From Trichomonas tenax (Eukaryota; Parabasalia; Trichomonadida; Trichomonadidae): DNA of 64,000 nucleotides. Below the pieces are notes generated by a model, which worked only from the letters and a program-made list of their open reading frames with translations, was not told the origin of the DNA and made no database searches. Both the position numbers and the translations under genes were made by a program. The stretch lies in the NCBI GenBank assembly GCA_023091735.1, contig JALKBU010000074.1, positions 29,636 to 93,635 of the forward strand. The letters run 5' to 3'. Shown piece after piece: positions 15,581-61,030 of the stretch. How positions within the stretch are numbered: the stretch's first letter is position 1; every line of letters begins with the position of its first letter.

Positions 15581-15622
15581 AAAATTTGTTACTTTTGGTG
15601 AAATTTTATAACAAAAAAATGT

Positions 15623-16228
15623 TTATTGAACTGAAACGTATTTGTTCCAATATTCAGCTGAAGCACGATACTTGGCTTCATCTATAGGGACAGAGGAACC
15701 ACCGTATTGACGTCCAAGTGCGTTTCTCATTGCTGTGATTGGTTGCATTGGAATTTCGCCTGGTGTGTGCTGTCCTTTGATTGAGATGAGTCCCCAATCC
15801 CAGTCACCCGGCTGTAACTGGAGCTTCATGTCTGCGGCTTCAGCAACGAGTTGTTCATGATTATAGAAAATTAAATCGAGTATTGGGGCCTTTGGAACAC
15901 CTCCTGGGATATCCTTAGCGCACACCCAGCGGCATAGTACTGGCAATTCGTCCTCGCGACGTGCACAATATCCACTCTTGATTAATGGTTCGATTTCTGA
16001 TGTAATTTTGACGGAATCAACGCAAGCATCTGTTGGATTTGGAATAAAGATGTGTCTGCAGAATGAAGCATAACCCTCTACAGAGATCTTGTCAAATCCG
16101 CCGTTCTCTTCAATATATTTGCGAACATGTTCAATGAATTCGTCCTTTGTCATCGTTGTAATGCGTGCACCGTGATAGTTTGGATTGTTCCAATGTCTAT
16201 AACAGAATTCGTCTAAAACAATTGTCAT
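15623..16228 (-). CDS. DUF3228-like conserved protein, unknown function
   Basis: 201 residues from the ATG at 16228 (MTIVLDEFCYRHW). The frame stays open upstream to 16381, but the extra 51 residues are spacer-like. The coding strand has CAAAGTGACATA directly before the 16228 ATG, the same promoter box as other genes here, so I prefer this start. Visible blocks are FCRHIFIPN, ELPVLCRWV, WGLISIKGQ and MQPITAMRNALG. I recall this as the DUF3228 pattern, found in scattered bacteria and protists, with no known activity. The family call is from memory of motifs. Confidence 0.7.
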   Translation of the reverse strand: MTIVLDEFCYRHWNNPNYHGARITTMTKDEFIEHVRKYIEENGGFDKISVEGYASFCRHIFIPNPTDACVDSVKITSEIEPLIKSGYCARREDELPVLCRWVCAKDIPGGVPKAPILDLIFYNHEQLVAEAADMKLQLQPGDWDWGLISIKGQHTPGEIPMQPITAMRNALGRQYGGSSVPIDEAKYRASAEYWNKYVSVQ

Positions 16229-17418
16229 TATGTCACTTTGATATTGATGAAAAATGTTGATGATGTCACATTTTTGAAAAGTGATAAAAATATTTTTGTA
16301 AAGTGTCAAATAAAGTTTTGTAAAGTGAGAGGTGGGCCAACCATTGAAAATCGAAATTGGAGCACCAAACTTTGCACACATGTTTGCATAGTCTCATATA
16401 TGCTATATTATAAATAGCAGAGGAAAATAAGAAAGTCAAAGATTAAACATAATCCCCCTTTACAGTTTAAAAATTAAATTTCGAATTTTGGCTCAAAAAT
16501 TAAATTTTGAAAAAAATGATTGGAAAACTTTCATTAAATGAGAAACTAAATAAGCAAAAACTCATAAATAATGGTAATATATATTATTCTAGAGAAAAAA
16601 AATGTCCAGCAGCCATGGTTATTAATGAGAATCTGATGAATGAAATTTGGAAATTCATCAAATACTTAAATTTCCTCATGATAACCTTAGATCTGGCAGA
16701 ATGGTTAACCTTATCATTACATTGGAACTATGTTCGAACCTTGATTGCAATCATTTCTTTTTGTCTTTTTTATCTAGCTTCGATTGATATACGCTTAATT
16801 GGGAAACTATTGATATCATATTGTTTACTTCTATAACCAGATCGGATTGATATCATTTAACATTGCTCACACTATTTTCATTGTTAGCGTCGTTTCAATT
16901 TTAATTCAATCAACATGAAAAAAAAACAATTATGGAATGAAACATATAACAAAATATAAGTATGTTAAATTTAACCTACATAAGCATTCCAAAATGCTTA
17001 AAGTCGAGAAACAATGATTTCCATTTCGTGATAAATAGAATGGAGCTCACTTAAAAGCCAAGTACACTGATCTTCTATATGTGTTATACTATAATCTACA
17101 TTTTAATTGCCTTTTCTAACAAAATTTTATGCTGAAACTCAATACCGAAAAAAAATAAAAATCTGACTTTACAAATGAAAATTTTTGCCAATTTTACAAT
17201 AACCGTCGTGAAGGGTAATTTTTTGATAAGTTATTTTAGATACGTATGATATGCCGATATAAAATAAACCATTTTTGATGTTTCAATGTTTTTTGCGGCT
17301 ATCGTGAACAAGCATGCTCTAATATTTGATGGATAGCATCACAATAGTATTTAAAAGCTATAGAACCATCAAAGTATTCATTGTTTCACATTGTCACTTT
17401 TAGTGATAAAAAGTGTCA
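16229..17418. other. Divergent intergenic spacer
   Basis: It separates the divergent genes starting at 16228 and 17419. Promoter-type boxes sit at both ends (GTCACTTT at 16232-16239; 17393-17418). A 106-codon frame from ATG 16516 to 16836 with one hydrophobic stretch is present but has no supporting signal, so I leave it uncalled. Confidence 0.5.
17393..17418 (+). promoter_or_regulatory. Promoter box abutting the CYTH start codon
   Basis: GTCACTTTT, a short spacer, then AAAAAGTGTCA directly joined to the ATG at 17419. The arms form an imperfect inverted repeat. TCACTTT also fits the trichomonad initiator TCAYW. The leader would be under 25 nt. Confidence 0.55.
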
Positions 17419-18039
17419 ATGACCGAGATTGAGATCAAATTAACTGTATTGAAAGAAGGCTATGAGACACTTTTAAGCATATTAGCGCTTAACATCACAG
17501 GTGTACTCCGCCAGAACAACATTTTCTTCAACACAAATGATGGAAAGCTCAAGAGATCAATGAGATTAAGAAGTATTAAGACAGCTGAAATTCCAACAAG
17601 ATGGATAGTTAACACCAAGGGCCCAGGTGCCATTGTCAATGGTATTTCTACAAGAAGTGAGATCGAAGAAACTGTTTCAGAAGAAATTGCTCAAAAGATC
17701 TTAAACGACACAAAGCATTTATACAAATACATTCCAAAGTGCGTTTCTGATGCTGTTGAGCCAACAAAAGATTCCGAATATTTTATCTCCGGAAACTTCG
17801 TCTCAATCCGCCGTGTTATTCCAATTGATGGATACACGATCGAAGCTGATGAATGCATTTATCCAAATGGAGAAAAATTCTACGAATTGGAAGTCGAATC
17901 TCAACACGCAGTAGAGGATAAAGTCAAAGTTGAGAAACTCCTCAACGACTTCAAGATTCACTTCGAGGAATCTAAGATTACAAAACTCAAGAGATTGATG
18001 AATTGCCCAGAAGATCATAGAATTAACTTGAACTTATAA
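17419..18039 (+). CDS. CYTH-domain triphosphate tunnel enzyme
   Basis: 206 residues. An in-frame GTG six bases upstream is not the start. Family signatures are in order: ExExK (E3, E5, K7), LRLRS-type strand (MRLRSI around 51-56), NTKGPGA with lysine, SRSEIEE-like (TRSEIEET), SIRRVIPIDGYTIEADE and FYELEVES. Members bind triphosphates with a divalent metal inside a beta-barrel tunnel. Known activities include inorganic triphosphatase, thiamine triphosphatase and RNA triphosphatase. All expected acidic and basic tunnel residues appear present, so it is probably active. The substrate cannot be fixed. In protists an mRNA-capping triphosphatase role is possible but the sequence looks more like the small-substrate branch. 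Confidence 0.85.
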   Translation: MTEIEIKLTVLKEGYETLLSILALNITGVLRQNNIFFNTNDGKLKRSMRLRSIKTAEIPTRWIVNTKGPGAIVNGISTRSEIEETVSEEIAQKILNDTKHLYKYIPKCVSDAVEPTKDSEYFISGNFVSIRRVIPIDGYTIEADECIYPNGEKFYELEVESQHAVEDKVKVEKLLNDFKIHFEESKITKLKRLMNCPEDHRINLNL

Positions 18040-18123
18040 AACCTATAACATGTACATACGCTTAAATTGGTAATCCATAGATTTTTAACATAACAAAAAA
18101 ACAAATATTTGGAAATAATAAAA

Positions 18124-18795
18124 TTAGCTCAAATTGTAAAAAGTAACGTGTGGCTTGAATGTTGTAGTCTGTGTAGGTGCTGGTTGTTCCTGAGAGATCT
18201 CAGAAGAGCTTGATAATATAGATTGTCGTTGATTTTGAACACGTGGTGAGCTAATTTCACGACTTTGCGTAAGGGGAGATCCGGTAACACGTGGACTTCC
18301 CATTCCTGTTTGTCTAAAGCGATCGTTGATCAAAGGAGAACGCGGTTTCTCAGAAACGCGTTCATTGCACGTACACTGTACTACCTTCGATCCGCATGAA
18401 CAAGTAAATCCATTCCAAATGCCTTTATCGACTAATTTGTGACCTTTGTGGCACTGTTCGGCGCAAACATTGCAAATTCCTTCGAATTCATCCATTCCGC
18501 AGGTCTGGCACACCCAAACATGCTGTGCCGGAACGTTTGTGCCGATTTTCAAATTTGTGCAGTATTTGTTGCCAACAGAGCACTTACAAGGGGATTTTCC
18601 GCATTCAGCGCCGCAGTCGCAGTTGAAGTACTGAGTTCCACGAACAGGAACTAAAGTGTGTCCAGCATGGCATAATTTCGCGCAGGCCTCGCAGCAGCCA
18701 AGTTCGTTGACCAATCCGCACGTTCTGCAGTGGTACATCTTCTGCTCCGTTCCACGGGATCCTTTTGCAAAAGTGCACTTTGTGGCTGAAAGCAT
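18124..18795 (-). CDS. UBR-box type zinc-binding protein with two Cys/His-rich domains
   Basis: 223 residues. Two related Cys/His clusters cover roughly residues 5-75 and 78-150, each with CxxCG, CExCAxxCHxGH or CNVCAEQCHKGH, and a CDCG or CSCGS turn. The pattern matches the UBR box of N-degron ubiquitin ligases, where it binds destabilising N-terminal residues. There is no RING or other E3 domain. The last 70 residues are Ser/Pro/Gln-rich and probably disordered. It may be an adaptor or substrate receptor. The coding strand reads ACGTGACAAATAAAA before the ATG, the shared promoter box. Confidence 0.8.
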   Translation of the reverse strand: MLSATKCTFAKGSRGTEQKMYHCRTCGLVNELGCCEACAKLCHAGHTLVPVRGTQYFNCDCGAECGKSPCKCSVGNKYCTNLKIGTNVPAQHVWVCQTCGMDEFEGICNVCAEQCHKGHKLVDKGIWNGFTCSCGSKVVQCTCNERVSEKPRSPLINDRFRQTGMGSPRVTGSPLTQSREISSPRVQNQRQSILSSSSEISQEQPAPTQTTTFKPHVTFYNLS

Positions 18796-18962
18796 TTTTA
18801 TTTGTCACGTTTTTAAAACGATTTATTCATTTTCTAATTTTTTTCATTCTAAAAATTTAACTTTTATTTTATTTTCATTCTGTTGATTCTAAAGTTAAAT
18901 TTTTATAGACAGGTGTAATCTATAATAGATTTAGTTACTGTGTTTAAATCATCAGCAATTAA
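18796..18962. other. Upstream region of the UBR-box gene
   Basis: TTTGTCACGT at 18800-18810 (ACGTGACAAA on the coding strand) is the box next to the start. Otherwise AT-rich. Confidence 0.4.
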
Positions 18963-19186
18963 TTAAAAATAAATCTTTTTATTAAACTCTATTTCATCAG
19001 TTGCTTTGAATCTTGGCAGCCATTTTAGTGCGTATTCAACAAATTCTCGAGCAGCTCCTTGGGAAAAGACTATAAGTCCCAAGAACAAACTTTTTATGTA
19101 TCATAAACACGATCTAGGTTGTCTAACAATGCGCATAATCTTTCTAAATTGATTGGAATCTCATCACGCGTAACAAAAACCCATCT
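18963..19186 (-). pseudogene. Unidentified gene relic
   Basis: On the minus strand two coding-like stretches lie end to end in different phases. One reads WVFVTRDEIPINLERLCALL and ends at a stop in the phrase DRVYDT. The other reads LGLIVFSQGAAREFVEYALK and continues to a stop at 18963-18965. A frameshift near 19095-19105 separates them, and there is no start codon. I do not recognise the family. It lies between the UBR-box gene and IFT56. Confidence 0.4.
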
Positions 19187-19343
19187 AAAATAAATGCTGA
19201 TTATCAAAATTAGCCAGAATCAATGATTGAAATATGATATCATATAATCTAAAGGTGATGAAGTTGAATATTACAATCAAAATAGTTTTATATCTACTTC
19301 ATTTTTTTCTTACATCAATAATAAATCAAATAATATTAATATT

Positions 19344-21020: not shown

Positions 21021-21844
21021 TTTTAATTTAAAACGGTTATTAAAATACGGTACTTTTTATTTCTCCAAATTCTGGCTGCGAGAATGCTGTCAGACGACTC
21101 AAGATTGCCTTTATAGGCATTTGGAAGGGACAAAGTCTCGTTTACACAAACAAAATGTGTTCTCATAATTGTTCATTCATTTTCTGTTTGTGAGAATATT
21201 GTAAATTACTATACTTTATATATAATAGCTATTTCCAAAGCCAATTTATGAAGAGTCGCTTGAGTTTATTAAAAATTAATTCGTTCATTCTAATAAGCCA
21301 TATATCTATTACAATTTTATTTAATTCAGAATAATATGATTGATGACAAAGTATTGCTTGAAATAAATAGTTCATATATTTTGAAGATTCAATTTCATGG
21401 TGAACTCATACTGTTTCTTGTACCATTAAATTATCATATACGAATTATAATGTAAAGATATGTTTAACATGGACAAAAATGCTAATATATCAAAAGTTTT
21501 ATAATTATCAATATACCATTCAAAAATTCTATGAATTCCACTACAGAAGGGATAGCAAGTATGCTCCTATCGTATACAATAATAGAATCAATATATATAT
21601 CAAATTGTTAAAATATAATGTTGCTTTTCGAATTCATATAATAATTCACTAATATTTTTGATTTATCACTTGATTTGAGCTAATAAGAGAAATTAATTCA
21701 TTTCGTATTAATCTTAAATATTAAGATTGCTGCAGTTAATGCGTATTCATATTTTCATGTAAGAATATCATTTCAAAGTGAGTTATGAGTTACTAAACTT
21801 AATTGTTTTTTTTATTAATATTAAAAACATTAAAATAAGGATGC
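21021..21844. other. AT-rich spacer
   Basis: Nothing recognisable. Composition is strongly AT with short A/T runs. Confidence 0.4.
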
Positions 21845-25691: not shown

Positions 25692-25724
25692 TTTACATGT
25701 CAGATTCACACTTTTGTTACGGGC
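25692..25724 (+). promoter_or_regulatory. Promoter module of the BspA-like gene
   Basis: TTTACATGTCA at 25692-25702, followed by TCACACTTTTGTTAC, about 45 nt before the ATG at 25746. It is the same module as at 23900, 29697 and 56839. Confidence 0.5.
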
Positions 25725-28996: not shown

Positions 28997-29753
28997 AATT
29001 TTAAGTAGTCAAAAAAATCACAAAAATTTGACATGAAATGATAACTTTTTTCATTATTTGGCATGTAAAGTGTCAACAAAAAGGAAGCACTTCATCGCAA
29101 TCATGATCCAGCCAAAAAAATACGGAAAATAAAGAAAAAATAAATGCGCATTGAGGTCAATCAAATATTTTAAAGCTACAAGTTTATTCATTTCTTCTTT
29201 CAATTTTGCTATTTTTTCATAAATTGGCTTTTTATCTATTATGAAAAAACTAAACATAACAACAGCTAAGACATCTAGCCTTTGTTATATAAGGCAGCTG
29301 AGACGCCGATTTTTTCGTGCTGCTCTATTGTAACTTTTTTGATGTCAGTGTTATTGTCGTGTAAATCTATTTTACATGACAATATGAAATTTACATGTCA
29401 TAATTCTAAAATATAGGACTTTTTTCGATTGATGAGCAAGTTAGTTGATTGTTTAGATGTGAATTGAAGTGCCTATCACAGGTGAATCTAAAGGACCATT
29501 AACTTTTTGAAATGGTGAAAGAGAAAACTATGGAAATTGGACATTCCAATAAAAAAAAGATGTATTGAAACAAATATATATTTCATTACTACCGTCGAAT
29601 ATATCATCTGTTGCTTGTTTGATGTAATGCTATCATACTTATAATGATCAAATACTTTTAATAATCTGAGAAAAAAATTTATAGTGAGAAAAATAATGAC
29701 ATGTAAATGTCATATTTTGTCGTGTAAATGAAAATCTCTGTCAAAAAAAATAT
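28997..29753. other. Spacer with promoter modules and a doubtful small frame
   Basis: A 67-codon minus-strand frame (29054-29257) has a short coiled coil (YEKIAKLKEEMNKL) then a hydrophobic stretch, but no promoter box precedes it. TTTACATGTCA at 29389-29399 and TTTACATGACA nearby are orphan motif copies. The last 60 bp is the promoter of the next gene. Confidence 0.4.
29697..29753 (+). promoter_or_regulatory. Promoter module of the ubiquitin-like/UBA gene
   Basis: TGACATGTAAATGTCA at 29697-29712 is a TTTACATGTCA-type site overlapped by a second TGTCA half. TCTGTCAAAAA follows at about 29738, close to the ATG at 29754. Confidence 0.55.
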
Positions 29754-36630: not shown

Positions 36631-37305
36631 TTAATATTTTTTGGGTTCAACAAGTTCTATATTAGACTCGTAATATGCTAGCAACTCTTTTAAGTGGTTA
36701 TTCTTCATATCTTCATTCGATAAAATAACCCTTTTTCCATCTTCAATCACACCAAAAACTAAATTGTTCTGCATATCTCTAAATGCCCCAATGATTTCAA
36801 ATGATGTAGATGATGTTTTTGTAAATTTTGCTTCAGTAAGAGTTGCTATTTGCTTTGGCTGTGATTTTGGTTGTGAATTTGATTTTTCTGTTTGTTTCGG
36901 TGTTGTTTCTTTCTGTGAAGATGTTTGTTGCTGAGTTTCATTTCCGTTAACTTTTGTATTATCTGCCAAATCTTTCTTTGCTTGATTCTCTTGTGTTTTC
37001 TGTTTCTTTGCTTTTGTCCTTCTGGTAGTTTTTGTCTTCTCTTCCTTCTTTTTAGATGAATCTGTTTTCGAAGGTGGCGTTGTTCCGATTTTCTCCCAAT
37101 ATTCATCAAGCAACGCCTGCGAACCCGTGAGGTTCATCATTGGCTCCCAAGTGTTCTGATCTGATGGATATCCTTTCCATTTGATGAAAAACTCGTATTC
37201 GCCGTTCCTTTTCTGTCTGTGCTTCACTATGGCCTCGACTGTGTACTCTCCTTCTGGAGTGTCTGAGGAAGACGAACTTGAATCATCAAATGGTGTTTGT
37301 TCCAT
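36631..37305 (-). CDS. HP1-like chromodomain protein with chromoshadow-like C-terminus
   Basis: 224 residues. The chromodomain is at 20-73 (YTVEAIVKHRQKRNGEYEFF, then IKWKGYPSDQNTWEPMMNL). The methyl-lysine aromatic cage is intact (Y21, W43, Y46 by position). A basic, Gln/Lys/Thr-rich linker follows (about 75-145), then a 70-residue chromoshadow-like domain (FEIIGAFRDMQNNLVFGVIE). Chromodomain, linker and shadow domain is the HP1 layout, which binds H3K9-methylated or related histone tails and dimerises. Role: heterochromatin silencing in the nucleus. The promoter on the coding strand is AAAAGTGTCA, AAGAA, AAGTGACA directly before the ATG. Confidence 0.85.
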   Translation of the reverse strand: MEQTPFDDSSSSSSDTPEGEYTVEAIVKHRQKRNGEYEFFIKWKGYPSDQNTWEPMMNLTGSQALLDEYWEKIGTTPPSKTDSSKKKEEKTKTTRRTKAKKQKTQENQAKKDLADNTKVNGNETQQQTSSQKETTPKQTEKSNSQPKSQPKQIATLTEAKFTKTSSTSFEIIGAFRDMQNNLVFGVIEDGKRVILSNEDMKNNHLKELLAYYESNIELVEPKKY

Positions 37306-37335
37306 TTTATGTCACTTTTCTTGACACTTTTAGAT
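37306..37335 (-). promoter_or_regulatory. Promoter boxes of the HP1-like gene
   Basis: On the plus strand GTCACTTTTC (37311-37320) then TTGACACTTTT (37321-37331). On the coding strand this is AAAAGTGTCA followed by AAAGTGACATAAA and the ATG, two boxes in 25 bp. Confidence 0.55.
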
Positions 37336-38235
37336 TTCAGATTATGTTATCTATGAAATGAAGAGCTTAAATATTTGAACCTTCAAACCCCTTAAAAGCA
37401 TGATTCAGCCTCCAAACTATACCTATGATCTATATGCATCCTTCTAAAACTAATATGATAAAATAAAATACGATTTTGCTGATGAAATAAAAATAGGGAT
37501 AAAATCAACTTTTATACATTAATTTGTTTTATGCATATATACATACAGATAGTCCTCGAAATAATAGGATCGCAAAATTGAAAGGAATTGAAAAAAAAGG
37601 AAATCCCTTTTCCAGATTCAATTTCCTTGTAACTTTAATGGTAGATACAGGGGGTAGTGTAGATGCTCATATTAAAATATCTTAGCTCTACTAACTTAAG
37701 TTATAGAGAACATAATTTTGGAATTTGATTAAATAAAAATTTTCGAAAATTTACATGTCAAATTAGTATAATACAAAAGTGCTTTTTTTACATATTAGTC
37801 GAGTGTTCGATTCTCGATGAAATTGTATTTTTTCTTTCTAATCATAACTACATATGTGCTCGTTGAAAATATCATTCCATTGCAGAATAGTTATATGTAG
37901 GATGTAATGTATTAAAATGAGTAAGAGTTAATCATCAAATGAAATTTTTCAATTCAATCAATTAATATTACATTTGATTTCATGCTTTTACATATGATAT
38001 ACATATTTCTGTATTAAGTAGTATGTGATTTATCATTTAATATTATTTTTTAGCTAGTATAAAAAATAATTGAGAATTACGACAATATTTCGCTTTGAAT
38101 GTTTAGCCAACATAGCTGCACATTCTCAAAAAAATTATAATATATATGTATGCATAAAATATAGTTTCATAATCAAGATCTTTGTGAAATTGATTTTTTT
38201 CGGGACTGGGACAAAATAGAACAACGTGCTTTTCT
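37336..38235. other. AT-rich spacer
   Basis: Only orphan motif copies are seen (TTTACATGTCA at 37750-37761 followed by AAAAGTGC). No coding signal. Confidence 0.4.
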
Positions 38236-38540
38236 GACATGCAACTTATTTTTGGCATGTAAAGTCAGGATGTCAAAATAAAGGAAAGTGACATGTTTGC
38301 GGGGGAAAAATGGAAAAGTGTCAATAGGTTGAAATGGATTGAACTCAATGTTGGAAGCCAAAGAAGACTTCATTCTGAGTAGTTGTGGCCTCATAGTGAA
38401 GGATGACCTGGTGATCTAGCAGAGATGCATCCAGATGCCTATTCAACAGAAGCATGATTCGATGTATGGCGAGGTCGACCTGATACTTCCAAAGCCCTCG
38501 AGTGGCCAAACCAGGCCCTAACAAGAACCCACTTATTGAT
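38236..38540 (+). pseudogene. Dead reading frame behind an intact promoter-like cluster
   Basis: Five motif copies (TGACATGC, GGCATGTAAAG, ATGTCAAAA, AAAGTGACATG, AAAAGTGTCA) lie in 38236-38322. An ATG at 38293 opens a frame that keeps coding-like composition to about 38535 but has stops at 38380, 38404 and 38455 (segments read MFAGEKWKSVNRLKWIELNV and FDVWRGRPDTSKALEWPNQA). The family is not recognised. An intact regulatory module with a broken frame fits a recent pseudogene. Confidence 0.45.
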
Positions 38541-38996
38541 TCAATTTTTAATACACATTACATTTTCACTTTTGATATTAATATATTATTATTTTTTTTT
38601 ATTTTTTATTTTTTCACAGATACCTTTTTCATTACAAGATTATTTTCATTTTATTACTTATTCTCATAATTATTAATATATCATTAAATTCATAATTAAT
38701 TGTTCTTGAATCATGAATTAGATAATGTTTTCATATTACGTTCATTTTATATACTGATTTATATTATTTAGATTCTCAATTTGATCCTTATATTCTTTGT
38801 AAAATTCGTTTTTTACTAAATTTTTATTTTTTTTTTTTCTTCAAATTATTTGTTTATAATTCATATTTACCATGCAATAAGGGATAATTTCGACCGAGTT
38901 TCTTGGTTTACTTAGGTTTGGAGTGCAACAAAAATTTGTAATGAACTACGTTTATGGTCTTCATACTCAGCGTGGAGTTTCAATCTATAAATGTCA
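38541..38996. other. Low-complexity T/A-rich stretch
   Basis: Runs of T and A around 38580-38860. No feature. Confidence 0.4.
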
Positions 38997-39140
38997 GTAT
39001 TGTTTAGACTACAAAGATATTTATAACACTTTTTATAAAAGTGACAATTTACCTGCGCAAAAAAAGTGACAGTTTATTCATGAAAAGTGACTTTAAGGTT
39101 CAATATCACTTTTTTGTTGTTCACTTTTGTCCTAGACTCG
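38997..39140 (+). repeat. Dispersed repeat carrying promoter-like boxes, copy 1
   Basis: Matches 62029-62156: GACTACAAAGATATTTAT, CACTTTTTATAAA, AGTTTATTCATGAAAAGTGA and CTTTAAGGTTC are shared. It contains three AAAGTGAC or GTCACTTT-type boxes in both orientations. No gene follows either copy. Confidence 0.75.
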
Positions 39141-40620
39141 ATTTTTTTCATTGAATTCATCAGTTTCAAACGAATTTATTTAATTTTGGTTTAAAAGCCA
39201 AATTTATTTCAACTATCTGTATGCAGTTACTTATTCTGATTTTTAATTATCATTTATCATATTTGATTAAATTTGACAAAGACGTTAATTTTTTTGACAT
39301 ATCTTTATTGGAATTTTTACGGCAAACTTCGATATATTTCAGGGAACATTAATAACTTTCAGTATAAGCGTCCATCCATGACTGTATAGATTGAAGCAGA
39401 ATCACTGTTTGATTATGTTGAGTAAATTGTCTTTTCGAAACTAATTTTAAAATGGATATTGATAACGAATACAGTAACCTCATACTAGAAAATCAAAAAA
39501 AACATTAGGATCAAATACCATTTTATTGACTGCAGTTTTAAAAAACAAATTGTATCTCGAGAAGTTATTTTAGCCAAGCCATGGTAATCAAGTATCTTAA
39601 TCTTTAGGCTAGTGGCTTACCAATATTTCAAATTTATAAAAATAGCAACTGACAATTTTTTTTGCATATGTGATAATTAAATGAAATATCATAACATATA
39701 TTACATGATATAAAATGCATGGTTACTTCAAAGTTTGGGCAAAATTCGATTTTTTTTTTGTGTAAATTGAATATATTTTCAACAAAAATGAGATCCATGC
39801 CTAATTAAATGTATAATAATATTTAGCTCTATGTTGTTGTTGACTATATCATTGTTTTAAAATATTAATATAATCCAATTCAATGATAAGAACCATTTTA
39901 TTAGCCCGAGAAGGTTTTTGTAAAATAAGGTTAAGAGTGTCACAGCCTTTAATTGAAAAGACAAAGTATTCAGGATCTTTCTATAAAGTTGATTTTGATT
40001 AAAAATACTACAATAAGCATATATTTACTAAATAACAAAGTAAAAGAAAAGATTAAAAGAATAAATACGCAAAATGGATTGAAAGATAGGAAAATTCTTG
40101 AGTATTTCGACTTTCGTGTAGTGCCTTGGTAAGTTGGGAAATAATCTAAGCATGAATGTTAAACAATAATTATTGAAGCCTAGATTATAGGGCTTTAAGG
40201 ATCAAGAGATGGTATTTGAGAGAATGCAACTAAATATATGACATGCCAAGCTAGTTTAGGATGCTGAATATTGATTTCGGGTATAAAATCCAATAATTTT
40301 GGGCGCTTTTCGAGAAAAACTAAGTAATTTCGCTGCAGCTGAGTTTTTAGTTATGTTTGAACTGGTGTAAGCAGCTTTTACTTCATGATATTGGCCTCAA
40401 ATCAGCACATGAGTGAGGCCATCATTAAATAGTAAACGGTCTCGTTTGCCAAGTAAAATGAATATTTGGCAAGTAAATTTTGAAATATATTTTATTTGTC
40501 AAAGATTGTCAGAAAATAATCTTACAAATCGAATTAACGATGTAGAAATGTATTCAATTTAAAATGAAGTACTCCCATTATTTATTTTCGTTAAATTACG
40601 CAAAAATTTCATTGAAAAAT
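39141..40620. other. AT-rich spacer
   Basis: No gene, repeat or motif recognised. Confidence 0.4.
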
Positions 40621-40637
40621 CTTATTCAACCATCGGG

Positions 40638-41012
40638 CTTTTCCCCATTTCCCATATGGGGGTCTTCCCCACTTGCGTCCCCAAATGGGAAAAAATTATA
40701 TTTTACAATAAAAAGTGTTTTTTTTTTTTGGAAAATGGGGAAACTTTTACAGTGGGGAATTGTACATTAGATGGGGAAATACATCGCGAATTCATGGTTT
40801 CAATTTCAAAGAAAACGAAATACCTTTCTCCGTATCTACATCTTTTCCCATTTTTCCTCTCAATTTCCACAAAAGGTGACACAAAATTGAATTCCCGCCA
40901 CGCAATTTTTAGTTGTGGGAACAATTTTGGAGAAAAGTGACACTCAATTTCAATACCGCAAATGGGGATTTTGGGGAATTTGAGAGTCATTGGCCGCAAA
41001 AATGGGGATTTC
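40638..41012. other. Cluster of TGGGGAA / TTCCCCA motifs
   Basis: About eight copies of ATGGGGA, TGGGGAA or the complement (near 40640, 40657, 40736, 40752, 40770, 40960, 40971, 41003) in 375 bp of otherwise AT-rich DNA, in both orientations. AAAAGTGAC boxes also occur (40934, 41169). The overlapping short frames share this composition and are not called. Confidence 0.4.
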
Positions 41013-42065
41013 GTAGTTTTATTGCTTATAATGTAATAAATCAATGCTATTTTTGCTTTTTGATAAGTTCAGAATTTTTAGTTCATTTATTTGTGTTTGT
41101 CATGTGGCAAAGCCTCCGGCCACGATTTTTTTTGGTTCTCCAATGGGAAAAAACTTAAATCACGTACAAAAAGTGACCTGTAAACAAGATGGTCGATCTA
41201 ATTCTCAAAATTTTTAACAAAATGTAGGAATTTTAAATAAAAGTCTTGGTTATGGAAAGTTGCTCCACAAATTGATTGCAACCATAAAAATATTGCTTGT
41301 ATGTTTCAATATGGATACAGAATAATATGGGAAAGAATGAAAGAGATATATCGATATTTTATGAACAATTATGAATTGATGGCAATAATCAAAATTATCG
41401 GATTTGTGATATAACTAATCTGCTATAATTTAGATTGGCAATAATAAAAGACAAAAATAAGGTGATTTATTTATTTGAAAATCAAATTCTTTGGAAAAAT
41501 CCATTTTTAATCTCATTCATCAATACGATTACATATACAAAGCCGATTTATGATTTTAAAAAGCTCCAAAACGACACTTTTTGTTAAAAAATTTTCTAAA
41601 ATAGCTGAAAATAATATACCGAATATAATGAACTAATAATATTTTTCATCACTATTCAAAAAATAAAGAATTCAAAATTTCTTTAATGAATTATACTCAT
41701 CAATATGTTTTGTACATTATTATGGAAAACAACATTATAAAATAGTAATCTTTTGATTGGTTATACTAGAATAGAGGAATTCAATTCTAGAAATAATATA
41801 TATTGATTAAATGCCTCTATAAAATCTGACAGAAAATCAAAAATCGACTTTTTCAACACCTATGATATATTCAGGAAATGACATCATATAATCATAAATA
41901 CCCCTAAAGACCTTGAGAATAATGTTTCGACTTTTATTCATATATCTTCAATGCTGAACGATTTAAGGGGTGCAAAATATTTATTAGACACCCGCTAGAA
42001 TTGTAATAAGCATTTTTATCGGCCATTGCAATGCAAGTAACAATGAAAATCATATTATAATCAAC
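41013..42065. other. AT-rich spacer
   Basis: Contains one AAAAAGTGACCTGTAAAC promoter-like site near 41168 followed by ATGG, with no open frame. Otherwise nothing. Confidence 0.4.
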
Positions 42066-42628
42066 TTGCTGCAACTATGTACCTCTTCCCTAGTTCAAGT
42101 TATTCCATCATTAAGTATTGAAGAAAGGTCAAAAACGGTTTTAAAAATGTTGCAAATCATCAAAAACTCAATCGATAAAAACGCATCATTTCAAATTATA
42201 TCATCAATAGTGCATCCAGATTTATTTATATTATGTTTTAAAGCTGTCAAGGAATCACTTGAACTTCAATTTCCTTTCTTAGATCTATTTGAACTTCTTA
42301 CAAAATATGAAATAATATCATTCAATGGTAGTAATTTACAAAAGTTATTGTGCAAAATTCTATATTTTTACTTGGAACTATCCACAAAGGACGAAAGTAT
42401 AGGTATAATTTCGTTCATTGTGATCAGTATCATTTACCAAAAGCATGACTGTTGGTATTTAATGCACATTTTTGTTGAAAGAAATTGGGATATTATTGAC
42501 GAAATTTTTGATGCATCGTTTTATTTGTCGACAAAGATGTTTTTCATGAAATCAATATCATTCTCACTCGATATGATCTCATTGAAAATGATATAGAAAT
42601 TGAAGATGAATATGACGAAGAACTATAA
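42066..42628 (+). pseudogene. 3' fragment of a helical (ARM/HEAT-like) protein gene
   Basis: An open frame of 176 codons starts at a TTG with no ATG upstream, encodes regular amphipathic helices (RSKTVLKMLQIIKNSIDK; HPDLFILCFKAVKESLEL) and stops at 42594-42596. A shift near 42570 restores an acidic tail ending EDEYDEEL at TAA 42626-42628, typical of importin- or condensin-like C-termini in these genomes. It is truncated at 5' and frameshifted near 3'. The parent family is not identified. Confidence 0.5.
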
Positions 42629-44067
42629 AATTATGATTCATTTCAACTTCCATTTAGATGTTAAAATTTTTACATTTTCTGCCTTCCTTATTTATTTTTA
42701 TAAGGATGTAGTTTTGGAAGAACCTTAAAAATGCAAAAACGCCTAAAAATTCATCTTGCAATCGGTGATTATTTTTTTTTTTTTTTTTTGTAAATTGTTA
42801 AAAATCTCATGATTTTACTCGCCAAAAACACATGTTTAATTAATCCATTACCACCTAATGATGCCTGTGATGCTATATACAATGATTAGATGGTAGGCTA
42901 TATTTTCGAACGGAGCTACTTTTTCCCTGTTCAATTTTTAAAAGATTTTTGAGATATTGGAAAATCCGAGAAACTTCATGAAATTTAGTGAATTTTGAGA
43001 AGGATGGATTTATAAAGGATAGCTGAGATGATAACATTTGAAACATCATTTGGTAAACGTTTTATCTTGTTTTCTATGCGAGATTTCTCTTTGGTATGGT
43101 AAAAATCAATAAACGTCGGCACCAAATGTGCAAAAACCAAGAGAGCTTTACAACATTGAAATATATATATCGGATGCATGTAGGGATCATTGAGCAAACT
43201 GTGTCGTGTTCTGCTGTCTTATAGTTTTTGCGTTTTGATGAAAGTATCAATTATAATAGTTCTTATGCACTATTAATCATGTGCACATGGTCAAAATTTG
43301 CAATAGATTATGATTTTCATGACAGCATATGCGGTTGTCATCGATTTTGAATCTTGAATATATTTATTTCGCAATTTGCAAAACTAAGTTTTTTTGATGA
43401 TATACAACTCTAATGCTGGGGTGTATATATCTACCTATTTTTACTTTCTAATTTTCCCTTTTTCCAATACTTTTTCCTATTTATCTTTTATTTTTATTAA
43501 ATCTATGTTATTATTTTTAATTATTGTTATGTATATCTAAATTCTGCTCAATTCACTTATTTCAGATTTCATTTTTTTTTGTCAATTTCCATAAATAATA
43601 TTAATAAGTAGTTACAAATATATTTGCAACCTTGTTAAATCCATTGGTGCATTTGTTTCTTATGATTTACATTTCATCAAAATATAATAGGAGAAAAATT
43701 TTGAAATTTCCTCAAAAATTAGTTTTGCTTATAACAACCTATATCAAAAATGAAGTTAATGTAGCAATTTAAAAATTAAGCAAACATCAAAAAAAGCTTG
43801 AAAAGTGAAAAAGAAAGAAAAATATCTATTTTTATATAAATAATTCGGCTTTTTTTCTCGGCTTCCGTTAGAACAAATTACGCGGTAGTCGAGGTTTGAA
43901 AGTAATTCTTATCGATATATATACTTTAAATATTAGCCCAAGTTCTTGGGAAATGGGAAGTGCTATCACCTTTTTTAGGAAGATTTAGGATGGAAGGAAG
44001 ATTTTTTGAATGATTTTTTTTCATATTCGTCTTAAAATAGCCTCATGGTTCCAATTAAACTGCTGTT
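42629..44067. other. AT-rich spacer
   Basis: Includes a T15-18 run near 42772-42789. A 70-codon minus frame at 42985-43197 has slightly coding-like composition but no other support. Confidence 0.35.
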
Positions 44068-44160
44068 CAAAATATGGGACTGAGAAAAAATTGAGAGAAC
44101 TCATAGAATTTTTCTATGAGTTTTATTCAAAAAATAAAAAAAGTGCAGTCCCATATTTTG
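44068..44160. repeat. Nested perfect inverted repeats
   Basis: Outer arms CAAAATATGGGACT (44068-44081) and AGTCCCATATTTTG (44147-44160) are perfect, 14 bp. Inside them AACTCATAGAA (44098-44108) and TTCTATGAGTT (44112-44122) are perfect, 11 bp with a 3-nt loop. Both lie inside a doubtful 96-codon frame (44010-44300). Confidence 0.8.
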
Positions 44161-44863
44161 AAACATTTAGTTTTTTTTTTGGTACTTTAGGAGTGTGCCA
44201 AAATTTGCAAACTAGAATGACAGCTATACTCCTGTATGAGGAAGTGTTTGATATTAATATATTAAAAAAATATCATGATTTCGAGTCAGCACGTTCGTGA
44301 TTTCGACGAGTTCACGATAGGCAAGTAAAATAAGTTTTTGATAAACAAAACAAGAATGTGTAAGTTATAAATCAGGTGTGATCATCATGAAATCGATCGA
44401 TTCAAAATCTGATTATTAATTATACCTGATTTGAACATGTTCTGGCATAACAATATTTTCCAAAGGCTGTGTGTAGTATTTGCAACTCGTTGACACAGCG
44501 ATTAATAAATGGCGGTGAAAATTTGCATCAGTCACCGAAACAAACTTATGATTGGACTTTGCCTGCAATAGGGTAGATTCGCATAAATACATGCTCGCAA
44601 AATTGGAGCTGTTCAATGAATCTGTCTTATTACCAATCTGTCGTATATTGAGCTATGTTTCAGTATTGCATTCAATAGCAATGCTCTTGTGGATACACAA
44701 CTTCAGTTGGTTCGATCGAAAAAACAATGCTATTTTGCGATTTTTACTCTAAATTCGTAATTAATAACTTAAATGGGATAACTTTAATTATAGAATAAAA
44801 ATTTATTTTCAATTCAAAACTTATCGTTTTAGAAGAAAAATAATCATACGATTCTATAATTAA
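44161..44863. other. Spacer without supported gene
   Basis: Short overlapping frames on both strands (44416-44752) lack any domain or promoter box. Confidence 0.35.
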
Positions 44864-44903
44864 AGTTTTCACGCATTTTTCATGCGCTTTTGCGCCCGTA
44901 AAC
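44864..44903. repeat. Short dispersed repeat, copy 1
   Basis: AGTTTTCACGCATTTTTC followed by ATGCGCTTTTGCGCCCGTAAA. It matches 49392-49431 with about seven differences. The core resembles GCGCTTTCGCACCTATAA at 49333-49350. Confidence 0.5.
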
Positions 44904-46032
44904 ATATGAAACTTTCAATTTTCACTAGTTTTTGTCCCACTTACGTATATTTTACATGACTTAATAGGAAAATTTATTATAGTGCATATAGCTTTAGAAT
45001 GCTATATAGAGCCTATATAACCTAACATATTTTCTAAATAAAACAGAGTTTGCCCCTTTATCCCGCGACTTTATACAAAAAATTGCTGGAATTACAATGT
45101 TTCTAGAGACTTATTCATGAATATAACAAATACTCTAAACTAGATATTATGTGAGTATCATTTTTTTTCCATTCCAATATTGTAATGAATTAGTTCATTG
45201 GTTGAAATTTCATTATTAATGCTTTTGGGTGAGCCTGGGATTAAAATATCTGAGTCGTATTGCTTATCCATTATATTATCATCATTCAAAGATTTTTGCG
45301 TCGAAGCAGGAGACAATCCATTTTATTGATGGATCATTACTATATCCAAAACTACACTTTAGACATTTTTATTTATGTTTGCTGTGCTAATAAATGGGGC
45401 TTAAACAACCAACTTTCCTTCAATGCAGTAAAAAATTGGATGGCTTATAGGGTCGCCAGGTGGATTGATGATTTTATAAAACAAACCTATTTTATTTGGA
45501 TAATTATATTTCTAAAATATCCTTTTCTAGCTTGAATATATAATGCGATGCATTTAACACAAAGAATCAGACTAATTACGTAATGACGTTTAATTTCCCT
45601 CACCTTTAAAAATCCTCCTAAGATTAAAAAGAGGAAGAACATACGGGTTTTGTAATTTGTTTGATAAATAGTTTTGCCAAAATCAATCATTATTGATGAT
45701 TAAAAATAGAAAAAGGCAATTACAATAAAGAAATGCTGTAATGTAGTCAACTTTTGCACCCCAGTTGAGAAAGGTACATATAATAAAGTCCTTACAAAAT
45801 GAGCAGTTGCGTACCAATATATATCATTGATAATATGAAAACAATATTATTCTATATATCTCAAACGATGCATTCCTATGTGCCTTCAAATCATTTAAAC
45901 ATAAATAGCATTATGCCTCATTATTATCGAGTCCTTAAGAAATGTGACAAACATGAATGCCTCATAGATTTTTTGAGTTCAAAGGGAAGGCTTTGGAAAA
46001 AGAATTAATTGAAGTAAGGTTAATTCTTTCTG
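44904..46032. other. Spacer upstream of the glycan gene cluster
   Basis: A 91-codon frame at 45260-45535 reads NNQLSFNAVKNWMAYRVARW in part and could be a transposase relic, but this is too weak to call. Otherwise AT-rich. Confidence 0.35.
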
Positions 46033-49586: not shown

Positions 49587-50483
49587 TCATTTGACTTGGA
49601 ATAGCTGCTTATTATATGAAAAAATTGTATCGTTTGTTCCTGTTATTTTGTATAGATACTTTAAAAAGTTCTTTCGAACTTTAACGAAGTTCTTATTTTC
49701 TGAAATTGCTTTTTCCTTTGATTGAATCCCATAATGATCTATGGTGCAAGCAACTGGTGGTAAATGCGTTATATTTGCATGAACAAAATTCATTAACAAA
49801 TCGTCACAATTTTGAACTCTAGCTGCATAATCTCTTGCAAGTTGGAAACGTGGCTCATAAAACTTTTCCCAATAGAGAGCATTGGAAAATGTAAACCCAA
49901 TCAGCACAAAATTGTATGGTATTCTTTTGCCGCCCAGATACTTATATGATTTATAGTTTCGAGGAAAGTTACCAAATATTTGATGCGTTAAATTATTTTC
50001 TTTATAAATTTCAAACATTCGATCAACAAGATTCAATTCAACAACTATATCATCATCTATGTTGAAAATAAATTGTGTATCAAGTGTATCTGGTATCAAA
50101 AAACGACTCGACATATTTCGACCTATTGTATCATATATATCCATTGGACGCAATCTATTGCAAGAGATATTTAAGTTGAGCTCGCTAATAGAGTATCTGT
50201 CTTTATGAAAGTCATTCCACAAAAGATAGACTTTACTTAAATATTTACTATGAGTGCATAAGAATTTAGGGAGAATAATGTTTAAATTCTCTTGCCTTCC
50301 TGTGTAAGTGCTGATAACAATGCTATATTTATTCTGGTCCAAAGTTCGATTTGGTAATCGTGTAAGAAGTGTCTTTCTGTTTACCACACCTGATAGCTGT
50401 GATGTATTGAAGTACACAGAGAATAAAACTGCGTACACAATAGGATAAAATAGAAAAAAAAGGCTAAAATTTAAATTCTTCAT
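49587..50483 (-). CDS. GT64 (exostosin-type) glycosyltransferase
   Basis: 298 residues. A signal anchor spans about 5-24. The domain follows the exostosin C-terminal GT64 pattern: YSIVISTYTGRQENL, a KVYLLWND strand, NRL.PMDIYDTIGRNMSSRF, the metal-binding DDD at about 143-145 in FNIDDDIVV, then IGFTFSNALYW and QNCDDLLMNFVHANI. GT64 enzymes transfer GlcNAc, or GlcA in bifunctional forms, onto heparan- or other glycans in the ER/Golgi. Only the GT64 half is present, as in EXTL2-like proteins. It is divergent from the DegT-family gene across 46 bp. Confidence 0.87.
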   Translation of the reverse strand: MKNLNFSLFFLFYPIVYAVLFSVYFNTSQLSGVVNRKTLLTRLPNRTLDQNKYSIVISTYTGRQENLNIILPKFLCTHSKYLSKVYLLWNDFHKDRYSISELNLNISCNRLRPMDIYDTIGRNMSSRFLIPDTLDTQFIFNIDDDIVVELNLVDRMFEIYKENNLTHQIFGNFPRNYKSYKYLGGKRIPYNFVLIGFTFSNALYWEKFYEPRFQLARDYAARVQNCDDLLMNFVHANITHLPPVACTIDHYGIQSKEKAISENKNFVKVRKNFLKYLYKITGTNDTIFSYNKQLFQVK

Positions 50484-50529
50484 TATTTTTTTGACAAAAC
50501 CTTTGATTTACGTGACAAATATAAATCGA
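50484..50529. promoter_or_regulatory. 46-bp bidirectional promoter between GT64 and DegT-family genes
   Basis: The two start codons are only 46 bp apart. TTTGTCAAAAAAATA lies next to the minus-strand ATG and ACGTGACAAATATAAATCGA next to the plus-strand ATG (coding-strand readings). Both genes thus carry the common box in a shared short region, suggesting co-expression. Confidence 0.6.
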
Positions 50530-55383: not shown

Positions 55384-56733
55384 TTACTCATCCTGGGAGT
55401 TGGCAATCATCCACTCTTTGATGTTCTTCATTTTGACTTCGATCTCTTTATCAGGATCATCATCATAAAGGTCCAAAAAGTCATCGAAAGAGATTCCTTC
55501 TCTGATTGAATGCCAAACGTGTGGATATTGATCATTCGGTGATATAGAGATAACTCTGTCAATGGCAATGACCATTCTGTTGGATAGCACGTTATCGTTC
55601 GCTTCGGTGGTAAATGAAATCATTTTCGTGAAAAAATGCAAATTCAAAAAATTAAAATTCTCGGTTGTAATCGAGCGCAATAGCCGTGTATACAATGAAA
55701 ATATGGCTTTTCTTAAGTCAAATCCTGCATTTTCTATATATTTTTCCATTCTAAATATAAATCCTAAAATAATGAAATTTTCAGTGAAAACTGGTGAATC
55801 ACTCAAAATCACGAACATTTTGAAGATAGAAACTCTGTGCTTTGCTGTTGAAATGTCACGAATTTTGTCGAAAATCAACTTTAGATTAATAGTCTCATAG
55901 TAAAGACCTTTTTCCGACATAAAAACAATGAAATCTATGATATGAGCGTGTGTTTTCATGTTATCTGTCTCCAAAAGAGGAGAAAATGATTGCCAAAATG
56001 TTTCATTCAATAAATCACGTGATGCAATGGTTTTGAAGATAGATATTGATGATCTAACGACAGCTGAATCGATATCAGGTCGTGCAATTGTAGATAAAAG
56101 AAATTTTGAAATTTTTAAAGTTTCTTCTTCTTCGAGATAATGATTCACTAAAGAGTTGAAAACATTAAAAACGTGTGTGGAAACTTTTGAGTCGAATATT
56201 GGAATTAATTTAAGTATATTGACGAGAATTTGAATTGTTTCTTCCTCAATTTGTGTGTTTTCTAGTGAAAACTCTAAAATATCGTATACTTCATCGATGT
56301 AAAGAAGAATTTCGTTCTGAGAAATGGCTGATATTAAACTAGAAAGTAAATTTTTTGATAAATAAAACTCAAATAATGACTGAGAAGACGAAATGATGAT
56401 GTGAATCAATGAAGCGCATAATTTCTTTGTCTGTGCATCATTAGATTCATAGAATAAATTAATTATTTCGAGAAATCGAATTTGAAATTTGTCTGAATTA
56501 TCAATATTTTGTGGATTTGTACATAACATCGTATTGACATGCTCGAGTTGCTTGTTTATCGATCCATTTGAATAGTATTCGTCGAAGTTTGAATCGAATT
56601 CATTCAATATTCGATAATTTTCTTCGCTTTCTTGGCTGAAATCCTTTATAACAGGATTCGCTATCACTTCAACGATCTTTAAATCTTTGCTTTGAGGACT
56701 TGTTAAGTCCTTATAAAGCATAAAACAATACAA
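55384..56733 (-). CDS. Helical armadillo-like protein, unknown function
   Basis: 449 residues, almost entirely amphipathic helices (for example NLLSSLISAISQNEILLYID, and RPDIDSAVVRSSISIFKTIA), consistent with ARM/HEAT repeats from about 60 to 400. The C-terminus is acidic (FLDLYDDDPDKEIEV) and ends in a last helix. It is similar in style to the fragment at 42066-42628, but I cannot show homology by eye. The promoter on the coding strand has AAAAAAGTGACC about 10-20 bp before the ATG, with TTTACATGTCA-type sites about 110 bp away. Confidence 0.65.
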   Translation of the reverse strand: MYCFMLYKDLTSPQSKDLKIVEVIANPVIKDFSQESEENYRILNEFDSNFDEYYSNGSINKQLEHVNTMLCTNPQNIDNSDKFQIRFLEIINLFYESNDAQTKKLCASLIHIIISSSQSLFEFYLSKNLLSSLISAISQNEILLYIDEVYDILEFSLENTQIEEETIQILVNILKLIPIFDSKVSTHVFNVFNSLVNHYLEEEETLKISKFLLSTIARPDIDSAVVRSSISIFKTIASRDLLNETFWQSFSPLLETDNMKTHAHIIDFIVFMSEKGLYYETINLKLIFDKIRDISTAKHRVSIFKMFVILSDSPVFTENFIILGFIFRMEKYIENAGFDLRKAIFSLYTRLLRSITTENFNFLNLHFFTKMISFTTEANDNVLSNRMVIAIDRVISISPNDQYPHVWHSIREGISFDDFLDLYDDDPDKEIEVKMKNIKEWMIANSQDE

Positions 56734-57257
56734 ATTTTAGAGGTCACTTTTTTCTCTCAAAATTCATTTACATGATAAAATTTTATATTTACAAGGCATT
56801 TTCCAAAAATTGCATTGTCACATTTGGAAAATGCCAAATTTACATGTCATTTTTGAAACTTTGCCTTTTTCATTAGTAAATTCAGTCTCTCTAGCAACCG
56901 AAAGCTATTAAGAAAGTAATTGAATAAAATGCGGTGGTTAAGCAAATGTTTTTCGAGATATAACTATATCAAGATTATTTTGATGATTATCTCATTTTTG
57001 AGAATAAAAACTGAGGAACTGCAATTATGTTATATAATTGATAGTAAATATTGGCTATAATGCATCTTTAAACATTTTATTGAAATTTCATGGTAGATCA
57101 TTTCATCAAACTTTTCATCATTGAATACCATGGATTTTCTTGGTTGTGATTAATCACCCATGATTTGGTATACTAATGAATTGATTTAAAGATATCAACA
57201 TGAATAGAAATGAAGGATGTTAATAAAACAAACAATTTTTTATAAGTCTAAAACATT
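56734..57257. other. Upstream region with promoter module
   Basis: See the entry at 56743-56849. 56860-57257 shows nothing. Confidence 0.4.
56743..56849 (-). promoter_or_regulatory. Promoter module with 13-bp inverted repeat
   Basis: GTCACTTTTTT at 56743-56753 lies next to the start at 56733. Further out is a perfect inverted repeat, GGCATTTTCCAAA (56795-56807) and TTTGGAAAATGCC (56823-56835), enclosing GCATTGTCACA, followed by TTTACATGTCA at 56839-56849. Confidence 0.5.
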
Positions 57258-60200: not shown

Positions 60201-60968
60201 CGCGAGAATTCTGTGATTTTTATCTAAAATGTATTTCAAAATATCAGGTAAATTGTTTTTCACAATTTCTGTTGATAATTCATTCGAAAAGCAGACAGCC
60301 GACTCATTGTGGAGCACAGAAACTATATCTTTGAGGAATGAAAAGAGAAATAAAATCGAACAATCTGTATTTTCAGAAGTATCAAATTTGTCTGTATATT
60401 TGTTTTTTGCATCGACAGTTAAGTCTTGTGGAACAGAATGAGACGAATTTATTAAATTATGTTGAGATGAAGCCCTTTCGTAAGTGATATCGATTAGTTG
60501 ATATATTGTTGCAATCGAAACTTGTTTAACTATTTCTGCTGTAGAATTTAAAAGCAGCAATGCCCATTTAAAAACGGAGATTCGATCATTTAATCCGCCA
60601 ATCTTTGAAGAAAACAGAGAAAGAGCGATTTGAAGTACTTTCAGACAGAAGTTATCGGAGTTTGACTGTATTTGCTCGGAAACATCTTCGAAAATTAACT
60701 GAATCGCTGGATAATCAATCATTTCGTTCTCTATCAGCAATCTTATTATCGATATTAGGTTCATGTATTCCGCTGATTGTCTTTTCGTCGTCGAAATATC
60801 TTTATATACCGAAATAAATGCCTCATCTTTGTTTTTTATCGAAAAGGAAGACAAATCAGCCGATTTCAGCTGGTAGATCACTTTTTCTATGTTTTTCTTC
60901 GTTGAATCGGATATCGAACCGCTTGCGATACTTCTCAATTCATTCTCAATCTGTTCCCTGATATCCAT
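57258..60968 (-). CDS. MON2-like HEAT-repeat protein (Sec7/BIG-related, no Sec7 domain)
   Basis: 1,236 residues of helical repeats. Residue order resembles MON2: an N-terminal DCB-like region with repeated HEAT helices, and around 740-830 the phrase ALGGVGLFWDIGSEIVPI, then AWKILLETLEKHFHDSRQNV and RIASLETFFNLVSTFSPQFP, matching MON2's late HDS segment (AIGLLWNISD..L..DPRPAVRKSA..TLFSTI). MON2 works with DOP1 at endosome and trans-Golgi membranes in retrograde traffic. It is shorter than yeast and human MON2 (over 1,600). BIG-type GEFs are the alternative but no Sec7 catalytic domain is seen. Five TTGTCAA/TTGACAA copies precede the start. Confidence 0.75.
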   Translation of the reverse strand: MDIREQIENELRSIASGSISDSTKKNIEKVIYQLKSADLSSFSIKNKDEAFISVYKDISTTKRQSAEYMNLISIIRLLIENEMIDYPAIQLIFEDVSEQIQSNSDNFCLKVLQIALSLFSSKIGGLNDRISVFKWALLLLNSTAEIVKQVSIATIYQLIDITYERASSQHNLINSSHSVPQDLTVDAKNKYTDKFDTSENTDCSILFLFSFLKDIVSVLHNESAVCFSNELSTEIVKNNLPDILKYILDKNHRILALYQTEYSTIITKLCSYIAPQKDNIIYLQFVPFIIIFLSQTNPPKAQQYTSTLINMVDTNPVAFSALSISFLLNSSIQFSLINGPDLGNLSKKACNFVLANFKGHFTNSIVISGRNKPLIENYDPKNISTSKIINSCIEILYLQIPQCIHHLEHFDQIFDSFETIWQRVVNLTEDQQSLLTSMKISRIAVKIAVAQQMTDPVNRILSTLCGVSLPQSSAYPLTLKSVISLSSITRLFSSLTYRLVKFWPLILETISKCYHTASHRRSAADAQALILISPNLFDFSSEIQTEHFISLFNILINLSESEVNSFISNKGTVANFWPLKTLSTIFIMNDFRVSSIEKFYFDHLKKLIECDSKEFRIQAVIEFFGVSKSLVKNKESSSIIFDFMQMTTCSTFKDVSITAFSCLLNFLNGETSNYINNNWLVILTTLKAVWSSCNKENIDNGFRTLNYVCRDCMKLIGPSSIQILMSTVSSYISQDEDINTALGGVGLFWDIGSEIVPISSDAHENAWKILLETLEKHFHDSRQNVRIASLETFFNLVSTFSPQFPTNLNDFVINDIFIPLFNKIYSEAQDYSVDLSNKIESFLLALQNGIQCLYSLGNYQEVMPLIIKSAEALSLRSELGNRCVDFMKCFIQLCNNNDRSLNSAVTKSIDRIVRNYCKNLSDTIMQGSANVVSEILPKIANIIDDGEFAVWLGILDVFCTFQVDKPFLNLATHVSLNTICQLHDLTIERMSFLVQMILSLFSIRHQPLTTKCFEVIETLYTKSFNEENRCRCLELVLPIFLVLLPSTDCVSCLKKMFEFPINLSSFFVKNINVRRFVDLGRRFDEFRDIVISRSIPYMEFISPSAFSIYLSLGSVDVVAAFFENICNDGVSDSKLSFANATKDFVYDSLKEQVELIISEEKALGSILPKNRYSGMINLLDRIINIHTDDRIFNIGGFHTQGHIFFVIGLMVKLTDSQSLEIRTAAQKIILSCQRKN

Positions 60969-61030
60969 TTGACAGATTACTTGTCAAATATCGTTTTTAT
61001 TTGACAAATATCAAGTCTACTTGACAAATT
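60969..61030 (-). promoter_or_regulatory. Array of TTGTCAA/TTGACAA boxes before the MON2-like gene
   Basis: In 62 bp: TTGACA (60969), TTGTCAAA (60981), TTGACAAA (61000), a degenerate TCAAGTC (61011) and TTGACAAA (61021). On the coding strand the last one reads CTGTCAA joined directly to the ATG. Dense version of the common box. Confidence 0.55.

Follow-up and report, generated by a model that had tools for sequence, protein, structure and literature searches.

Do functionally unrelated genes of Trichomonas tenax share a promoter element placed directly before their start codons, and if they do, what is it? The question is raised by a stretch of 64,000 nucleotides (nt) of contig JALKBU010000074.1 (the window, from here on), in which an initial annotation took twelve short strings, each close to a start codon, for copies of one box, GTGACA/GTCAA. 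All twelve strings are indeed present as written, on the coding strand and before their starts, but they are made of two different words plus a remainder. The box proper, AAAGTG[AT]C, is, as far as its letters tell, the M2 motif already described in Trichomonas vaginalis, which the initial annotation had mixed with the second word and with bare GTCAA. It lies before starts in both orientations, and it is absent just after stop codons. We lean slightly towards the view that the box is the trichomonad M2 motif AAAAGTGAC(A), acting as a promoter-proximal DNA site that would be used in both orientations and read by a factor of the initiator type or a similar one. The known core promoter elements of trichomonads are few, and those usually named are the initiator, M3, and M5.

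The genome of the window has 53.4 Mb in 1528 contigs, and our sample of it amounts to 314 kb: the window plus 25 stretches of 10 kb (250 kb of the 53.4 Mb). These stretches were chosen non-randomly, from contigs selected by their number and known length, and 17 of the 25 open with the first base of a contig, a position at which repeats are common. The gene models are not annotated genes but open reading frames (ORFs) to which a codon score was applied. There are 109 of them, and we use the 102 that have 150 nt of upstream sequence, 18 in the window and 84 held out. The models miss some genes, for example an ORF of 298 amino acids (aa) at 49587-50483. The M2-type word is scored as AAAGTG[AT]C in both orientations, and it is called start-proximal when it lies at most 30 nt before the ATG. 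As controls we use 300 dinucleotide shuffles and, in a Fisher test, 576 upstream blocks of 30 nt taken at -60 to -270. An earlier ORF set without codon scoring gives enrichment in the same direction, with a weaker contrast.

The word is enriched before held-out starts. In either orientation it is found at 12 of the 84, where the shuffles have a mean of 0.2 and a maximum of 2, and where the upstream blocks have 12/576 (1.7 per 84; Fisher p 6.4e-6). The reverse orientation is present at 8/84 (shuffles 0.1, upstream 1.2 per 84, p 0.00027), and GTCACTTT in particular at 6/84 (shuffles 0.1, upstream blocks 0.9), while the exact forward AAAGTGAC is present at only 2/84 (0.0 and 0.6). Among ORFs of at least 200 aa the count is 10/71. 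Over all 102 modelled genes, 16 carry the word, in either orientation, within about 30 nt of the start codon. As for position, half of the forward copies in the last 300 nt (8/16) lie at 0-20 nt from the ATG, and 8 of the 21 reverse copies lie at 10-20 nt. Within 100 nt downstream of 105 stop codons, we observe zero copies in either orientation. At a finer scale, of 12 TCACTTT copies within 60 nt, 10 have their A+1 at 9-24 nt before the ATG. TCATTT is nearer (5-11 nt in 7/16), and the last A of AAAGTG(A/T)CA lies 1-17 nt before the ATG in 8 of 10 forward copies.

The expected enrichment of GTGACA/GTCAA within 30 nt of starts over shuffled sequence holds for AAAGTG[AT]C, and it does not hold for GTCAA. 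GTCAA alone is present at 6/84 held-out starts, with 3.4 in the shuffles and 3.4 in the upstream blocks; because of this lack of enrichment we reject it as a part of the box, and GTCAA is outside the box proper. The loose set of strings of the initial annotation reaches 15/84 held-out starts (shuffles 5.0, upstream blocks 5.5), but 11/18 starts inside the window, in the nearest 36-nt bin. Thus, the window flattered the loose set.

Rescoring the twelve starts with two explicit words over 60 nt upstream separates them. AAAGTG[AT]C or its reverse complement is found at four, as the exact M2 word at 16228, 37305, and 56721 (the start that had been placed at 56733) and as GTCACTTT at 17419. The second word, TG[AT]C[AG]N[GA]TAAA in either orientation, is found at five (18795, 29754, 50483, 50530, and 60968). 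Three starts have neither word (33788, 55149, and 15580), and among their strings AAAGTAACA differs from the AAAGTG[AT]C type by one base; the one-base variant AAAGTAAC is not associated with starts in the 314 kb sample. A longer ORF (15623-16381) encloses the start at 16228, yet the codon model chooses 16228, and the match to DUF3228 sets in at residue 54 of that ORF; both agree with the initial annotation. In all, AAAGTG[AT]C occurs 25 times in the window, counting both strands, with 6 of these copies at the four box starts and 10 inside repeats by coordinate.

That genes of unrelated function share the start-proximal word is borne out. A Pfam scan covered 18 held-out proteins; the genes of 14 have AAAGTG[AT]C, in one orientation or the other, within 60 nt, and those of the other 4 have only CACTTT near the start. 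Matches are found in 13 of the 18, to diverse families that include kinase, C2, Vps39 zinc finger, ankyrin, MKT1, FKBP, thioredoxin, PPDK, DEAD_2 helicase, adaptin, and Mob1; a Snapin match falls under the Pfam cut-off.

How does this compare with what has been described in T. vaginalis? AAAGTGAC is named the M2 motif of Smith et al. 2011 in PMC4223856, which is the sole match in a literature search for the word together with Trichomonas. The passages of that source that concern M2 locate it upstream of expressed coding genes, pseudogenes, and long non-coding RNAs. Here the identical 8-base word is over-represented upstream of genes in a related trichomonad and, unlike in those passages, both orientations and the distance to the start codon are counted. 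The initiator, M3, and M5 are described in PMC7946386 and PMC7370421, and the M3 pattern that we use, [AGT][AG]C[GC]G[TC]T[TAG], comes from PMC9203502. The box matches neither this pattern nor the CCTTT of M5. With respect to the initiator, the box had been said to overlap TCAYW only partly. This is not supported: on the other strand, GTCACTTT contains a perfect TCAYW, as TCACT, at the 9-24 nt given above, and that orientation is the commoner one in the 84 held-out genes (8 vs. 4). A TCA+1YW within about 20-30 nt of the ATG is provided by GTCACTTT and not by the forward AAAGTGAC, which, unlike the T. vaginalis initiator, has no TCAYW site; the over-represented form is also longer and more specific than the initiator. 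The sources on T. vaginalis, in the parts dealing with initiators, include a relaxed form HCAHW (PMC7370421) and two initiators of the TCAAA type (PMC8871863), so that single GTCAA strings may still be initiators, though GTCAA as a class is unenriched.

Genome-wide, we count pairs of a word and a following ATG, with both strands summed and repeats included; all figures are lower bounds, and the control is the reversed pattern. AAAGTGACA is followed by ATG at 0-12 nt at least 2180 times (reversed, at least 91). It would be wrong to take this contrast as proof of start association, because the excess is nearly equal at 40-52 nt (at least 1629 vs. at least 83); at 13-25 nt the counts are at least 1667 and at least 108. 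A GTA in place of the ATG shows the same over-representation (at least 616 at 0-12 nt, reversed at least 231). For TGTCACTTT there are at least 1659, 1319, and 1381 pairs at 0-12, 13-25, and 40-52 nt (reversed, at least 120, 95, and 98). For AAAGTGTCA there are at least 1086 at 0-12 nt and at least 869 at 40-52 nt (reversed, at least 81 and 84); among the places listed, one repeat family stands out. All three words are some 10- to 24-fold over-represented at every distance counted, and the M2-type word itself 14- to 24-fold, close to the ATG and away from it alike. This speaks against the claim: the great bulk of the genome-wide copies has no tie to a start codon.

What could the start-proximal copies do? 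In the mechanism that we find most likely, an M2 site adjoining the transcription start would be bound by a sequence-specific factor, either of the initiator-binding class or of a similar one, and the bound factor would help to position RNA polymerase II, with GTCACTTT carrying the initiator TCA+1YW. That is, we infer that a protein reads the word as DNA, and that the word sets or helps to set the start. As a side observation, the genome has 110 matches to PF10416 (initiator-binding domain, IBD), 7 of them with internal stops, and 0 of 14 control genomes have any. PF10416 is the domain found in IBP39, the initiator-binding protein of T. vaginalis, and its matches here make a large family of possible DNA-binding proteins.

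Several observations weigh against a promoter role of this kind. The forward word is weak when taken alone, with 4/84 held-out starts (shuffles 0.1, upstream 0.6 per 84 from 4/576 blocks, p 0.011). In the genome-wide counts, the excess at 0-12 over 40-52 nt is only 1.34-fold for AAAGTGACA, 1.20-fold for TGTCACTTT, and 1.25-fold for AAAGTGTCA. Moreover, TGTCACTTT has no excess at 13-25 nt, a poor fit to the sample peak of the reverse word at 10-20 nt. The best IBD protein among those retrieved has no PDB match, and a role of the IBD family at the word is thus a conjecture. A large share of the sampled copies, as detailed below, is inside repeats. Finally, M2 is called "non-functional" in the passages of PMC4223856 that concern it. 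On the other side, M2 now turns up in a second species, where it precedes starts in either orientation and is missing directly downstream of stops, and this argues for a retest of that status.

Perhaps nothing beyond an ordinary initiator is needed. The sense GTCACTTT would then be the initiator, and AAAGTGAC a flipped site that marks divergent or antisense starts and has no role for the gene that follows. The TCAYW inside GTCACTTT, the prevalence of that orientation, and the enrichment of TCA[CT]T (22/84 held-out starts vs. 10.0 in shuffles and 7.7 in upstream blocks) all fit, but the forward copies are mostly within 17 nt of their own ATG, and no modelled divergent start is found within 200 nt. 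A divergent modelled neighbour is present for 7 of the 18 modelled genes that carry the word within 60 nt, in no case nearer than 214 nt; as far as the models show, the forward boxes are not simply a neighbour's initiator, and we reject that origin for them. In addition, the over-represented word is longer than TCAYW. Its extended form is AAAAGTGACA (an A precedes AAAGTGAC in 33/36 copies, and an A follows in 23/36), which has 23 copies in unique intergenic DNA, and 0 when reversed. For these reasons we find the initiator alone an unlikely explanation, though one to be taken seriously. A bolder extension of the promoter reading is about as doubtful, and if anything slightly more so: M2 could be a reversible initiator-type element, with the site AAAAGTGACA / TGTCACTTTT read both ways by members of the IBD family, together with the upstream word TGACATGTAAA, whose sense copies lie 20-50 nt before starts. 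If true, trichomonad starts would be set by an element without fixed polarity.

It could also be that the word owes its abundance mainly to mobile or repeated elements, which carry and scatter it, and that its proximity to starts is a passive by-product. Of 76 copies of AAAGTGAC in the 314 kb, 33 fall in repeats, which make up 7.6% of the sample; whole repeat pieces carrying several copies recur both in the window and at other loci, and repeat families are prominent among the genome matches listed. Yet another 39 copies are in unique intergenic DNA, where 8.9 are expected and where AAAGTGAC is the second most over-represented 8-mer (the remaining 4 are in genes), and the start enrichment persists when starts adjoining repeats are left out (12/80). 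We regard scattering as quite improbable. Least probable by far is a signal in the 5′ untranslated region (UTR) of the mRNA acting on translation. The forward copies do sit where short trichomonad 5′ UTRs would be, but the reverse complement is enriched there at least as strongly, and this is not what one expects of an RNA signal. Our preference, with the reservations above, stays with M2 as a promoter-proximal DNA site.

The second word has the consensus TGACATGTAAA, is separate from the box, and is the strongest intergenic word. GACATGTA is the most over-represented 8-mer of unique intergenic DNA (35 seen vs. 5.0 expected), and the analysis sets M2 apart from this second word, which is even more over-represented. 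Unique intergenic DNA holds 73 copies of the degenerate form, repeats hold 11, and genes 5, compared with 7, 1, and 6 for the reversed word. The copies tend to cluster, with 25/66 neighbouring pairs at most 80 nt apart. In the sense direction, 8/13 of the CATGTAAA copies of the last 300 nt, and 9/19 of the degenerate copies, are at 20-50 nt before starts, whereas the degenerate copies in antisense have no clear peak. Genome-wide, TGACATGTAAA is followed by ATG at least 3379 times at 20-50 nt (reversed, at least 10) and at least 2835 times at 80-110 nt (at least 19). In the open-licence literature, a search pairing Trichomonas with the word, in one or the other orientation, gave no relevant result. 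One of the copies lies in a very compact bidirectional promoter, the 46-bp spacer 50484-50529 that parts the divergent starts of a GT64 glycosyltransferase and a DegT-type aminotransferase.

Are there other promoter classes? The initial annotation had suggested a second one, from genes that lack the box. This is supported in part: IFT56 has no M2 word and has M3 matches AACCGTTT / TAACCGTT at 18/19 nt before its ATG; at the phosphodiesterase (23023), none of the tested elements is present. M3 matches are also found at a 205-aa gene (12746) and at a GT61 gene (49120) and, as for the T. vaginalis element, M3 is enriched before starts (either orientation, 8/84 held-out starts vs. 1.6 in shuffles and 1.0 in upstream blocks). 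CCTTT is not enriched (1/84 held-out starts, shuffles 2.0, upstream blocks 1.6), and we reject M5 as a second promoter class here. In 56/102 genes M2, TCAYW, M3, and CCTTT are all absent within 30 nt, so that either most promoters are unexplained by this set or the starts are misplaced.

Table 1. Candidate promoter words and repeat pieces located in the window (nt distances are to the ATG named).
Position	Strand	Feature	Context
15588..15595	-	AAAGTAAC, one-base variant	before ATG 15580; left out of the box count
16232..16239	-	AAAGTGAC, M2 word	3 nt before ATG 16228, DUF3228 gene (codon model, Pfam)
17393..17400	+	GTCACTTT, M2 word in initiator orientation	18 nt before ATG 17419, CYTH-domain gene
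17410..17417	+	AAAGTGTC	1 nt before ATG 17419
18797..18807	-	TGACAAATAAA, second word	1 nt before ATG 18795, UBR-box gene
21031..21039	-	TAACCGTTT, M3 (Myb-type) element	before IFT56, gene without M2 word
25692-25702		second word, further site among others	
29697..29728	+	TGACATGTAAA + TGTCGTGTAAA, two copies of second word	46 and 25 nt before ATG 29754
37311..37318	-	AAAGTGAC	5 nt before ATG 37305, chromodomain gene
37323..37330	-	AAAGTGTC	17 nt before ATG 37305
38202..39141	.	dispersed repeat pieces	five AAAGTG[AT]C copies (38285, 38315, 39038, 39063, 39084)
50507..50517	.	TTTACGTGACA / TGTCACGTAAA, second word	inside 46-bp spacer of divergent starts 50483, 50530
56743..56750	-	AAAGTGAC	21 nt before ATG 56721
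56839-56849		second word, further site among others	
60996..61006	-	TGTCAAATAAA, second word	27 nt before ATG 60968
61881..62156	.	dispersed repeat piece	three AAAGTG[AT]C copies (62057, 62102, 62123)

A palindrome, AAAGTGWCACTTT, was considered as a form of the box and rejected, since the bases 3′ of AAAGTGAC in unique intergenic DNA have no CTTT preference. Repeat pieces with several M2 words are found in the window at the two places of Table 1 and at 40648-41193, and at sampled loci L001, L007, L008, L009, L016, L018, and L019; the piece at 38202 also has copies of the second word. The repeated elements look as if they had taken up host promoter words.

The third gene named as lacking the box was a membrane protein of 12.8 kb, for which we find no intact ORF of that size in the window, where the longest closed ORF starting at an ATG has 1236 aa. 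In the interval 33-47 kb, all stop-to-stop frames are short except those of the 433-, 224-, 394-, and 149-aa ORFs. The long AT-rich tract at 37300-46000, with few ORFs and scattered short frames, is where the initial annotation may have placed that gene. As for IFT56, its protein in the window has 82% identity to the nearest T. vaginalis protein and about 60% to the nearest ones of T. foetus, with one further database match at 98%.

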